The position numbers were made by a program, and so were the translations under genes. Below are positions 9,957 through 20,157 of a DNA stretch of 43,199 bases, piece after piece (position 1 is the first letter of the stretch; each line of letters opens with the position of its first letter). The stretch covers positions 1 through 43,199 of the forward strand of contig JAJYLC010000008.1 of assembly GCA_021787935.1 (NCBI GenBank), written 5' to 3'. This DNA comes from Chloroflexota bacterium. Lineage in GTDB: Bacteria > Chloroflexota > Dehalococcoidia > SZUA-161. The notes under the pieces were generated by a model. The model made no database searches, was not told the origin of the DNA, and saw only the letters and a list, made by a program, of their open reading frames with translations.

Positions 9957-10622
9957 TTAGCTTTTCGGCGGGGGAGGCGCAGGAGCAGCGGGCTGTTGCT
10001 TTCTCATCATCACTACTACCGCTAGGATTATAGCGATGACAGCAAGCACGATGCCAATGATGCCGTATACGTTGGACGCACTCTTACCAGTAGGTCCGAT
10101 AGGGCCAGTGGAACCAGTGGCGCCCGTGGCACCCGTCGCTCCAGCGGGTATGCCCAGCGTCAATATACCCGTCGATGGATCCCAACTGACCGTGGGGGCC
10201 GAACCGGCAGGAAGTGCGGTAACAATTACCTGGGTTATCGCACCTCCAACGGAGGTGCCGCCCCCTGAGCCCTTGGTCAGGTTTACCAGCACGTTGCCAC
10301 CTATTTGCCAGGTAGCCGTCTGGGTCACAGTAGCGTTGCCAATCATGAAGCTCACGGTCATCCCGCTATAGCTCACGCCCTCAGGTTGAGGTATAACTAT
10401 TTTGTATGTTGAATTACCGGATACAGTTGTTGTGGTAGTGGTAAACGTTGCATTCCCTATCTTGGCCGTTATCACAGTGCCGTCGGCCACCTTTAGGCCA
10501 TTCACCAGCACTGAGCCATGGAAGGCGCAAGGCGGCTCCAGACCGCCCTGAGCGAAAGCTATGGCCGGGAAGAGGACAAGCGCTACCACTGCCAGCAGAG
10601 CCAACAGTCTCAGTTTGGTCAT
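9957..10622 (-). CDS. Membrane-anchored surface protein with collagen-like stretch
   Basis: A 221-residue protein of unknown function that is clearly exported. It has a signal peptide (LLALLAVVALVLFPAIAFAQ), an Ig/beta-rich ectodomain at about residues 28-155 and seven consecutive Gly-X-Y triplets (GATGATGATGSTGPIGPTGK). A single transmembrane helix follows (about residues 184-206, IIGIVLAVIAIILAVVVMM), with a short cytoplasmic Lys/Arg/Pro-rich tail. This makes it a type I membrane protein with a collagen-like stalk. The ATG at 10622 has a GGAGG ribosome-binding site. It follows the IPT-like gene on the minus strand, 75 bp apart with a strong hairpin between, so the pair probably forms one surface operon with differential expression. 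The triplet number is low, so triple-helix formation is uncertain. Confidence 0.7.
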   Translation of the reverse strand: MTKLRLLALLAVVALVLFPAIAFAQGGLEPPCAFHGSVLVNGLKVADGTVITAKIGNATFTTTTTTVSGNSTYKIVIPQPEGVSYSGMTVSFMIGNATVTQTATWQIGGNVLVNLTKGSGGGTSVGGAITQVIVTALPAGSAPTVSWDPSTGILTLGIPAGATGATGATGSTGPIGPTGKSASNVYGIIGIVLAVIAIILAVVVMMRKQQPAAPAPPPPKS

Positions 10623-10648
10623 ACTCTTTCCTCCTTATTTAGTAGCCT

Positions 10649-10680
10649 ACCTTGAGGGGTTCGCTGGAACCCCTCAAGGT
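10649..10680. terminator. Strong hairpin between the two surface genes
   Basis: ACCTTGAGGGGTTC (10649-10662) and GAACCCCTCAAGGT (10667-10680) form a perfect 14-bp stem with a 4-base loop, directly after the stop of the IPT-like gene. No T-run follows on the minus strand, so it may be a partial terminator or an RNA-stabilising hairpin. Confidence 0.7.
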
Positions 10681-10696
10681 AATTCTCTTTATCCTC

Positions 10697-12634
10697 TTAT
10701 TGCCAGCCTTTCAAATTCCAGCCCGCGCTGAGCGTATAGCTATGCGCGCCGTAAATCAGGGTGCAGTCTGCATTGACGTCAATCCAGAAGCCATCGCCGG
10801 GGTTAAGGGATGCCAGGTTGCTTCCGGCAAGGTCAGCCGGATCATACATGTACCAGGTTCCGTTACCATAGGTCCACACCCTAACGAGCTGGGTGCTTAT
10901 CCCAGCGAGCTGGGTACCAATGCCTACCTGACCTGCTGTTAAGGTGAAAAACGATGTCGCAGTATTCGTCCCGTCTGTGGCCAGTATCACCTGGACTCCC
11001 GGCGCCAGACCGGGTACGGTGAAGGCATAGCTGAAAGTACCCGAAGCAGTGGTCAACGCCTGGCTGGTCAGTGTGTAGGTGCCAATCTTGATCGTCACCG
11101 GGAAGTAGCCTAGGAAGCCCGTCCCGCTTAGCGATACTGAGGTTGTGGCCGCACCCGTGTTGGGAGTAACTGTAATGGCCGCCCCGGGTATGGTAAACGT
11201 TGCCGCCGGGCTGGTATTGTTGTTTGTATCAGCAGCGCCAACGGTGTAAGCGCCGGGAGCAGAAGCGGTCGGTACGGTAATGGTAGCCGCTATAGCTCCG
11301 GTGGCGTCCGGTGTAACGGTTTGCGTCGCCACAACTTTGGCCGTCGACACACTGGTGAGACTAATTGTCACCACATTGTTCACCACGGTATTGGTTACCC
11401 ACCCGGTCCCGGTGACTACTACGGTAGTGCCCGCCGGACCGGTAGTCGGATTGATGGCGATGGTGGGCGTGGTAATGGTGAACATGCCTGTGGCAATCAC
11501 ACCATGAATGTCTGTCGCCGTCACTGTGTTAACCCCGGCGGTAACCGTGTTGGCAGTTGGGACATAAAGTGTCGTCGGGCTTATCACGCCGGTGCTATCG
11601 ATACTTATGTTCCCTGTGTTCCAGGCGAATCCACCGAACTTGAGTTGACCAGCCGGAATGTAGTTGCCCGACGCAGCAAACATGTTAGCGCCCGTGAGCA
11701 GAACCTGAGTGTTTCTGGGCCCGCTGCTCGGAGTCAGCACCAGGGCACGGCTCACCACTGTGAACGTTGTGCTAGCAGTGAAAGTGCCCCGAGTCGCCAC
11801 AATCTGGTTAACACCAACCAGCGCTCCGGGAGGGGTCGCCTTTGATGCTGCAAGCTGCCCATTAGACTGAGCGATAACCCACGTCCATGGCGCGCCAGCG
11901 AATGTTAAAGTAACGTTCCCGCCGGCAGGCCAACCGTTGCCTGAGATAGTGACAGTAGAGCCGGCCAGCCCGCTGAGCGGAGATACCGCTACGGAGGGGG
12001 TAACCGTGAAGCTTGCCATGTTAGCGGTACTGTTGGCTCCAGCCAAGTCCTTACCCCAAATATTGTGCGCGCCGGAAGTCAGAGGAGGTACTGCCGCGGT
12101 CACGGTGAAGCCGCCGGTCAGGTCCGTCAGCCCCACTGTGGCCAGGGTCAGATTCCCAAGCGTGGCATTGCCGGTATCTATTTTCACATATCCGCCAACA
12201 CTCGCATTGAATCCGGTGCCCTGTACCGTAATGCTGCTCCCCACAGGCCCGGACAATGTAGTGGGCGATGTTACAACAACCTTGGGAACCACGAAGAAGT
12301 TCTGTGTAGGGCTGCTTATGCCGTCAGTAACTTTAATAGTGTGGTTTCCATATGTAGACGCGGGAACCACTATACCGAAGGTAGCGGCGCCCCCACTGGC
12401 TACAACCGTAGATGGCACGGTAGTAATAAGCGCGCCGTCCCAGTAGGTGTACAGGGTGACATTCCCCAGAAAACCACTCACTGAAATGGTAACAGGAGTA
12501 CCCACCGGCCCCGTCGTAGCGCTTAGGCTTGTAATAGAACCTGCTGCGCTGGCGGGCACTGCGGCTACCGCCACCAGGGTACCTAAAATTGCTAGCACCG
12601 CCAGCAGTGTTATGATTCTTGTCTTTACTTTCAT
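10697..12634 (-). CDS. Secreted multi-repeat IPT/TIG-like surface protein
   Basis: A 645-residue exported protein. After a signal peptide (cleavage near PASAAG, residue 31) it contains about six Ig-like repeats of 80-100 residues. Each opens with a GPVGTPVTISVSGF-type motif: GPVGTPVTIS, GPVGSSITVQGTGF, GLAGSTVTISGNGW, GPRNTQVLLTGANM, GPAGTTVVVTGTGW and GAATTSVSLSGTGF. These resemble IPT/TIG or archaeal S-layer-like folds. The last 75 residues differ: they are Trp-rich (VRVWTYGNGTWYMYDPADL, GDGFWIDV, LSAGWNLKGW) and look like a separate cap domain. There is no cell-wall anchor motif or C-terminal transmembrane helix. The role is probably structural, in the S-layer or adhesion, but this is inferred. 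The ATG has its own AAAGGAG ribosome-binding site and directly abuts the stop of a 25-codon leader ORF. It is first in an operon with the collagen-like gene. Confidence 0.78.
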   Translation of the reverse strand: MKVKTRIITLLAVLAILGTLVAVAAVPASAAGSITSLSATTGPVGTPVTISVSGFLGNVTLYTYWDGALITTVPSTVVASGGAATFGIVVPASTYGNHTIKVTDGISSPTQNFFVVPKVVVTSPTTLSGPVGSSITVQGTGFNASVGGYVKIDTGNATLGNLTLATVGLTDLTGGFTVTAAVPPLTSGAHNIWGKDLAGANSTANMASFTVTPSVAVSPLSGLAGSTVTISGNGWPAGGNVTLTFAGAPWTWVIAQSNGQLAASKATPPGALVGVNQIVATRGTFTASTTFTVVSRALVLTPSSGPRNTQVLLTGANMFAASGNYIPAGQLKFGGFAWNTGNISIDSTGVISPTTLYVPTANTVTAGVNTVTATDIHGVIATGMFTITTPTIAINPTTGPAGTTVVVTGTGWVTNTVVNNVVTISLTSVSTAKVVATQTVTPDATGAIAATITVPTASAPGAYTVGAADTNNNTSPAATFTIPGAAITVTPNTGAATTSVSLSGTGFLGYFPVTIKIGTYTLTSQALTTASGTFSYAFTVPGLAPGVQVILATDGTNTATSFFTLTAGQVGIGTQLAGISTQLVRVWTYGNGTWYMYDPADLAGSNLASLNPGDGFWIDVNADCTLIYGAHSYTLSAGWNLKGWQ

Positions 12635-12712
12635 CTAGTCTCTCCTTTCTTGGGCGAAATATTGACTTGCCCCCGATGACCAACTCCTAATTCTATTTGT
12701 CTCAATCTTCAC
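12635..12712 (-). CDS. Putative 25-residue leader peptide upstream of the surface protein
   Basis: A short frame starts with GTG at 12712, eight bases after a near-perfect AAGGAGGTG ribosome-binding site (12721-12729). It encodes 25 residues (MKIETNRIRSWS...AQERRD) and ends with TAG at 12635-12637, immediately before the ATG of the 645-residue surface protein. The peptide is polar and Arg-rich and is not a signal peptide. The unusually good ribosome-binding site and the abutting stop/start suggest translational coupling or an attenuation-like control. No homologue is recognised. Confidence 0.45.
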   Translation of the reverse strand: MKIETNRIRSWSSGASQYFAQERRD

Positions 12713-12904
12713 ATATAACCCACCTCCTTGTTAAGCATGTCAACTATGCTTTTTAATTTTTTAGAACTCCAATTTTTCCTCTAGTATAAAGACTAGCCCC
12801 CTGCTGGGGGACTGCTAAAAGTGAGGTCTTACCCACGTTCCACACCGGTAATTTTAGTGCTTCCTTTTTTGCATATACCTACTCTAGGTAGGCAAGTCGG
12901 CCTC

Positions 12905-12934
12905 ATTCTAAACACCTTTATTCCCGCTTGTCAA
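12905..12934 (-). promoter_or_regulatory. Promoter of the surface-protein operon, with long leader
   Basis: On the minus strand TTGACA (12929-12934) and TAGAAT (12905-12910) are 18 bases apart. Transcription would start near 12898, giving a leader of about 185 bases to the leader ORF and about 264 to the main ATG. The leader holds small hairpins (CCTAC...GTAGG near 12890; CCCCC-TGCT-GGGGG at 12797-12810). It matches no riboswitch class that I recognise. Confidence 0.5.
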
Positions 12935-20032: not shown

Positions 20033-20157
20033 GCTTCCTGGTGGTTAGAGCGGGGTGGCACCACCCGTTCCCATCCCGAACACGGAAGTGAAACGCCCCA
20101 GCGCAGACGATACTGAGGGGGCAACTCCTTGAGGAAAATATGCCACTGCTGGGAAGC
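20033..20157 (+). rRNA. rrf: 5S ribosomal RNA
   Basis: The sequence follows the bacterial 5S pattern: CCTGGTGG near the 5' end, then GGGGTGGCACCACCCGTTCC, CATCCCGAACACGGAAGTGA and AACGCCCCAGCG. The 3' strand is TGCCACTGCTGGGAAGC. The terminal arms GCTTCC and GGAAGC pair. Ends are placed by this helix and may be off by a few bases. No 16S or 23S gene is in the window, so it is an isolated copy. A strong terminator follows immediately. Confidence 0.93.

Follow-up and report, generated by a model that had tools for sequence, protein, structure and literature searches.

The surface-protein gene and its leader

The window analysed here, i.e., the whole stretch of 43,199 nt of Dehalococcoidia DNA, comes from a genome of 2.68 Mb and carries on its minus strand an ORF for an exported surface protein of 645 residues with TIG domains (10697..12634, start codon ATG at 12634). 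Several proteins across the class that differ elsewhere match the C-terminal part of this protein (RVWxYxxGxWxMYDPAD...GWNLxGW; 10697-10897, residues ~580-645). A 15-bp hairpin (10648-10681), which is terminator-like on the plus strand only, lies between the gene and its neighbour (9957-10622).

A sigma-70-like promoter (TTGACA, 18-nt spacer, TAGAAT; 12905..12934, minus strand) matches the consensus at 11 of 12 positions and confirms the promoter that a sequence-only reading of this DNA had placed here. Reckoned from an assumed start just past this promoter the leader is ~264 nt long, and its features described in the following lie on the minus strand. A hairpin CCCCC-AGCA-GGGGG (12797..12810) stands upstream of a distal Shine-Dalgarno (SD) sequence, AAGGAGGTG (12721..12729), a putative docking site, which starts 95 nt upstream of the surface-gene start. 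The sequence-only reading had already ranked this site above the ribosome-binding sites of most genes here, and it indeed pairs over 9 bases with the canonical anti-SD, one more than the best of the 32 window genes found with our own simple ORF script (8 bases); the canonical anti-SD is assumed here to hold for the 16S rRNA of the window genome as well.

The distal SD is followed by the start-stop ATG TGA (12709..12714), in which TGA (12711-12709) comes directly after ATG (12714-12712) and the ATG overlaps a GTG (12712-12710). Counted from AGGAGG the spacing is 8 nt for the ATG and 10 nt for the GTG, so that the ATG is the better placed of the two. The GTG opens a frame of 25 codons (12635..12712) that encodes VKIETNRIRSWSSGASQYFAQERRD and ends with TAG (12637-12635) adjoining the ATG at 12634, as the earlier reading had described it; this frame is probably translated solely through reinitiation. 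Closer to the gene a possible stem GGGC...GCCC (12652..12672) lies directly upstream of the gene's own SD, AAAGGAG (12642..12648), which the orthologue alignment places inside the invariant AGAAAGGAGAGACTAGAT.

Folding of the leader was predicted to be no stronger than that of shuffled sequences (z -0.51). The predicted probability of being unpaired is 0.59-0.82 for the gene SD and 0.46-0.54 for the distal SD, with leader means of 0.42-0.45. When the whole window was searched for structured RNA at the Rfam gathering thresholds, a 5S rRNA gene (20037-20154, plus strand) was the sole match, with none in the leader and no other rRNA; the 3' end of this 5S gene overlaps the first bases of an ORF at 20140.

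Conservation of the leader

An orthologue search in 60 genomes gave three full-length relatives, one from the same genus (G001) and two from two other genera of the same family (G004 and G006), which together with the window genome (G000) make a set of four genomes from three genera. All four leaders have in common the promoter with much of its spacer, the distal SD, TTATATG, the GGGC/GCCC pair, whose arms are invariant and hence give no covariation signal, and AGAAAGGAGAGACTAGAT. The distal SD is near-exact across the four genomes while the leader sequence varies elsewhere, and the block of SD and TATATG was confined to these four leaders in a pattern search of 18 genomes of the order. The ATG frame behind the distal SD stops after one codon in three of the four (ATG TGA) and after two in G006, which reads ATG GAA TGA with an overlapping ATG replacing the GTG. 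Judged by predicted promoters only, the distal SD lies 121-170 nt from the 5' end in G000, G001 and G004 and 35 nt from it in G006. The translation signals of the leader are real and conserved, and the sequence-only reading had thus picked a constrained site. The CCCCC-GGGGG hairpin is present in G000 and G001 and missing in G004 and G006, and is therefore a non-essential part of the leader.

The encoded peptide behaves differently from the SD. A net one-base change shifts the long frame of G001 (VKIEMNEIRVGHWGQVNILPKKGETR) relative to that of G000, which means that the peptide is not kept within the genus. G004 uses the same frame as G000 and encodes VKITRKRLLRNWLTGARKLLAQERRD, and by eye these two peptides look alike (VKI..R.W..GA..AQERRD), whereas the G006 peptide, MKTTMMKELADGYSGQCDNSPEKGETR, is unlike them. 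The sequence-only reading had offered a leader-peptide attenuator or a regulatory peptide as an explanation of this layout. The long leader, the strong SD, the hairpin in two of the four genomes and the likeness of the G000 and G004 peptides would fit such a control, but the frame shift in G001, the different peptide in G006, the loss of the hairpin in two genomes and the ordinary folding of the leader all speak against it. Moreover, as the gene SD is predicted to be largely accessible, unmasking of this site would be unneeded. We therefore regard this explanation as very improbable.

The frame could also be a relic of an older upstream start, i.e., an N-terminal extension severed by the TAG. 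This would account for the GTG frame and the gene sharing a phase in G000 and G004, but in G001 and G006 the frame is out of phase, the stop directly after the ATG is kept, and the frames of other leaders are unrelated, so that a relic is hardly credible.

Short SD-led ORFs across the class

The frequency of distal SDs in general was estimated in a sample of ~290 kb of the window's own genome, which holds 121 genes preceded by long intergenic leaders. A 7-base SD core occurs at -28 to -160 in four of these 121 leaders and in three of 121 in the antisense control, and a generic distal core as a feature of most genes was rejected on these counts. Signal peptides were found for 13 of the 121 genes, and the window gene is the only one of the 13 with a distal SD. 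Although generic distal cores are at the antisense level, the distal SD of the window gene is beyond chance.

A search of the 393 genomes of the class for AAGGAGG-N4-9-ATGTGAA gave 41 matches in 38 genomes. Six matches are GTG gene starts, 12 were flagged as lying within coding sequence (including L065, which resembles a true GTG start), one has no gene near, one belongs to a frame-broken gene and 21 are upstream of a gene. These 21 loci sit 46-121 nt ahead of the gene, which encodes an exported protein or lipoprotein in 15 cases, FtsA in three, a membrane protein in one and other proteins in two. Compared with the 13 of 121 signal-peptide genes in the sample, a background that comes from one genome whereas the matches are class-wide, this is an enrichment (Fisher P 1.6e-8 for all loci and 1.2e-6 for 11 of 16 groups). 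A recount gave 12 of 16 exported groups, or 11 of 15 if L174 is merged with the lipoproteins of family f87, and the P value of 1.2e-6 is therefore conservative. For signal peptides we relied on a simple hydropathy script, except that L046 and L057 were judged by eye, and for gene calls on our own ORF script.

When the stop codon was changed to TAA or TAG, the search gave 50 matches in 46 genomes, many of them inside coding sequence; seven lie upstream of exported-protein genes (L082, L083, L084, L095, L100, L192 and L210; L080 was left out of the classification). Moving the TGA downstream by one codon, as a control, yielded 42 matches spread over 37 genomes. Thirty of these were taken and, with L218, L219, L220, L226 and L237 left out, 25 loci were parsed, of which five precede exported-protein genes at a distance of 63-89 nt. 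The claim for the start-stop as the sole feature was weakened on the basis of this control. Very short SD-led ORFs generally mark the leaders of exported genes; the start-stop is by our estimate about twofold commoner but not unique.

It might still be argued that the distal SD resembles an SD by chance and goes unused, the leader being conserved for its promoter or for other reasons. The matches flagged inside coding sequence (12 of 41) are what chance predicts, and the antisense-level count of distal cores points the same way. However, one would then expect neither a near-exact match between four genomes from three genera, in a leader that otherwise varies, nor the enrichment ahead of exported genes, and we consider chance an unlikely explanation.

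ftsA leaders and SDs without a start codon

In the genus g71, which we guess to be Dehalogenimonas, an SD followed by GATGTGA is located upstream of ftsA in 8/8 genomes (L148-L155), with variable sequence in between. The GTG peptides of these leaders have 7-14 residues (three computed, the rest by eye) and are not conserved, and the three computed GTG frames end 30-50 nt ahead of ftsA. The second ftsA copy of g71 lacks the SD-GATGTGA in the six leaders examined out of eight (L160 and L161 were left out). The sister genus g25 of the same family, likewise by our guess Dehalococcoides, has GATGTGC at this site of the ftsA leader and with it a five-codon ATG ORF in all three genomes. In family f87 the SD-ATG-TGA or SD-ATG-TAA arrangement occurs 13 times in three of three genomes, and ten of the 13 are ahead of a lipoprotein or exported gene according to the script.

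The pattern AAGGAGGTGATA gave 38 matches in 18 genomes of the order, of which 30 were taken; L256 carries a flag as inside a gene but was included, being the same surface gene as that of L013. At ten of the 30 loci examined the SD lacks a start codon at working distance, and the gene follows 65-135 nt downstream. Eight of these ten genes encode exported or pilin-like proteins, and with orthologous groups merged (L251, L253 and L265 form one group) six of eight are exported (P 1.1e-4). Occurrence of such SDs ahead of exported genes points to the putative docking SD as the common factor, whether or not a mini-ORF accompanies it. The window's own genome has one such locus (L258; G000:C86, 2271-2282, plus strand), where AAGGAGGTGATA lies ahead of an exported-protein gene without a start codon at working distance and AAGGAGG is 83 nt from the gene start.

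The stop/start junction and possible translational coupling

The position at which the leader frame ends relative to the gene start is similar in the four orthologues, although different frames are used: TAG directly adjoins ATG in G000, the two codons overlap as ATGA in G001 and G006, and in G004 the frame stops three bases before the gene (TAG ATA ATG). The sequence-only reading had named a comparison with related species as a check, in which loss of the frame, its SD and the junction would speak against it. The SD and an ATG that stops after one or two codons were found in 4/4 genomes and the junction was exact in three of four, with G004 3 nt off, but the peptide frame itself was shifted in G001.

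In dinucleotide shuffles in which the SD, the start and the gene start were fixed, the GTG frame remained open to the junction in 34%, i.e., the open frame is no more than chance. A TAG directly ahead of the start codon occurs in 6/239 genes of the G000 sample. The same contact is seen in homologues of the surface gene whose distal SD lacks a start codon at working distance (L013; also L015, L022 and L251, which are one orthologous group). Because the TAG-ATG contact exists without a leader frame and a third of the shuffles are open, stop/start contact alone is weak evidence. The hexamer TAGATG (12632-12637 in the window) recurs at the surface-protein starts of L012, L013, L015, L022 and L251, also where there is no leader frame.

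Translational coupling, which the earlier reading had proposed as well, is the main rival explanation. It would act as a cascade of mini-ORFs, in which initiation at ATG-TGA is followed by reinitiation at the GTG and again at the ATG of the surface gene, and where the position of the ORF end matters and its sequence does not. Frame ends at or near the gene start in all four orthologues are what such a cascade predicts. Exact junctions are present at seven of the 21 class-wide loci (L053, L054, L056, L057, L066, L076 and L077), or in five of 16 groups where shuffles lead one to expect 1.6 (P 0.006), but this test was post hoc and covers few groups. According to a study in E. coli, reinitiation at AUGUGA depends on RF2 (PMC9841429), which also favours coupling. 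On the other hand, the gene's own AAAGGAG is strong and predicted to be accessible, 14 of the 21 leaders are without an exact junction, several of them stopping 27-75 nt short, and the TAG-ATG contact does not need a leader ORF. Coupling by reinitiation as the explanation of the leader seems rather unlikely.

A proposed ribosome-docking site

We propose, at about even chances, that a distal docking site for ribosomes lies in the surface-gene leader, as a start-stop variant of a STAB-SD-like element. As its layout recurs upstream of other exported-protein genes of the class, the leader looks like a landing pad for ribosomes and not like a gene for a small peptide. In favour of docking are the retention of the SD and of an ATG with an early stop in all four orthologous leaders despite the shifted peptide frame, the recurrence ahead of exported-protein genes and ftsA, and the relatives in the order whose SD has no start codon. 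A 30S subunit, or a 70S ribosome starting on the ATG at 12714, would bind AAGGAGGTG. With TGA coming right after the ATG, this ribosome would terminate immediately or idle, and it could restart at the overlapping GTG and continue to the start of the surface gene. The useful product would then be the occupancy of the leader by ribosomes and not the peptide. Such occupancy may protect the mRNA and possibly feed ribosomes to the gene's own SD, and immediate termination would keep ribosomes from running far while the transcript is protected or primed. If there is a hand-over to the gene, it may proceed by termination-reinitiation.

Several observations weigh against docking. The distal SD is predicted to be about half unpaired only, three of the four leaders have it far from their predicted 5' end, and the two-codon ORFs ahead of exported genes speak against the start-stop as a uniquely favoured form. 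So do the five-codon ORFs in the ftsA leaders of g25, and 12 of the 13 signal-peptide genes of the G000 sample lack a distal SD. In the genome assembly of the window the best match to RNase J is a weak one, a protein of 545 residues with 39.7 bits against a curated cut-off of 400. As no protein of this genome is above the family cut-off, blocking of RNase J is unsupported and was dropped as a mode of action.

Taken across Dehalococcoidia, the recurrences suggest, tentatively and with considerable doubt, a clade-wide leader device of exported-protein and ftsA mRNAs, in which an over-strong distal SD, often with a start-stop, would park or recycle ribosomes, so that the mRNA stays occupied and the gene is supplied with ribosomes. 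If true, such a device would parallel the start-stop uORFs in bacteria, would provide a mostly uncultured class with a leader design for strong expression of export proteins and would carry the STAB-SD idea over to another phylum. It would also offer natural bacterial start-stop uORFs that are testable in simple reporters.

Comparison with known systems

The component pieces of this arrangement are known separately, and for their combination in this class no report was found in the literature searched. In this mostly non-subscription literature we found neither a precedent in Dehalococcoides or Dehalogenimonas (including PMC11109978) nor a report of S-layer leader ORFs or tandem SDs for this class.

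In eukaryotes, start-stop uORFs such as that of A. thaliana NIP5;1 likewise consist of an AUG and an immediate stop in a leader, but there reinitiation is 40S-based and no SD is involved (PMC5972666). For E. coli ptrB, PMC4965119 describes a 5'-terminal uAUG: an AUG-xxx-UGA ORF gives 40% of the wild type, and expression falls below 8% without the AUG. There, too, an upstream AUG with a minimal ORF affects expression; however, the ptrB AUG is at the mRNA 5' end, whereas the ATG described here is internal and has an SD.

The start-stop itself is closest to the AUGUGA studied in E. coli reporters. In long-spaced constructs, according to PMC9841429, initiation is mostly at the AUG and RF2 ends translation at the UGA, while ribosomes enter the GUG frame via termination-reinitiation. 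The present leader likewise has a strong SD that favours the AUG over the overlapping GUG, an immediate UGA and an A as fourth base of the GUG frame, and this arrangement is found in G000, G001 and G004. By our own count, which assumes an E. coli-like 16S 3' end, the window spacing corresponds to ~16/18 in the measure of that study and so exceeds the AUG-favouring 14/16. In E. coli the GUG starts a real gene, whereas here the GTG opens a short leader frame.

The nearest known case for the leader as a whole is the STAB-SD of the cry3A mRNA of Bacillus thuringiensis. This is an SD-like site complementary to the 16S 3' end, located far upstream of the gene and close to where the stable transcript begins, with the major transcript starting at -129; it blocks 5'-3' decay by RNase J1, lengthens the half-life and directs no translation (PMC4113751). 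The leader was not assigned as a member of this class of elements: it belongs to another phylum, ATG-TGA/GTG follows the SD, 121-170 nt separate the SD from the predicted 5' end in three of the four genomes, and no RNase J is above the cut-off. It shares with the STAB-SD the strong SD far upstream in the leader of a structural-protein gene, here at -95, with 9 bases and in 4/4 orthologues, and some relatives in the order have, like cry3A, the SD without a start codon.
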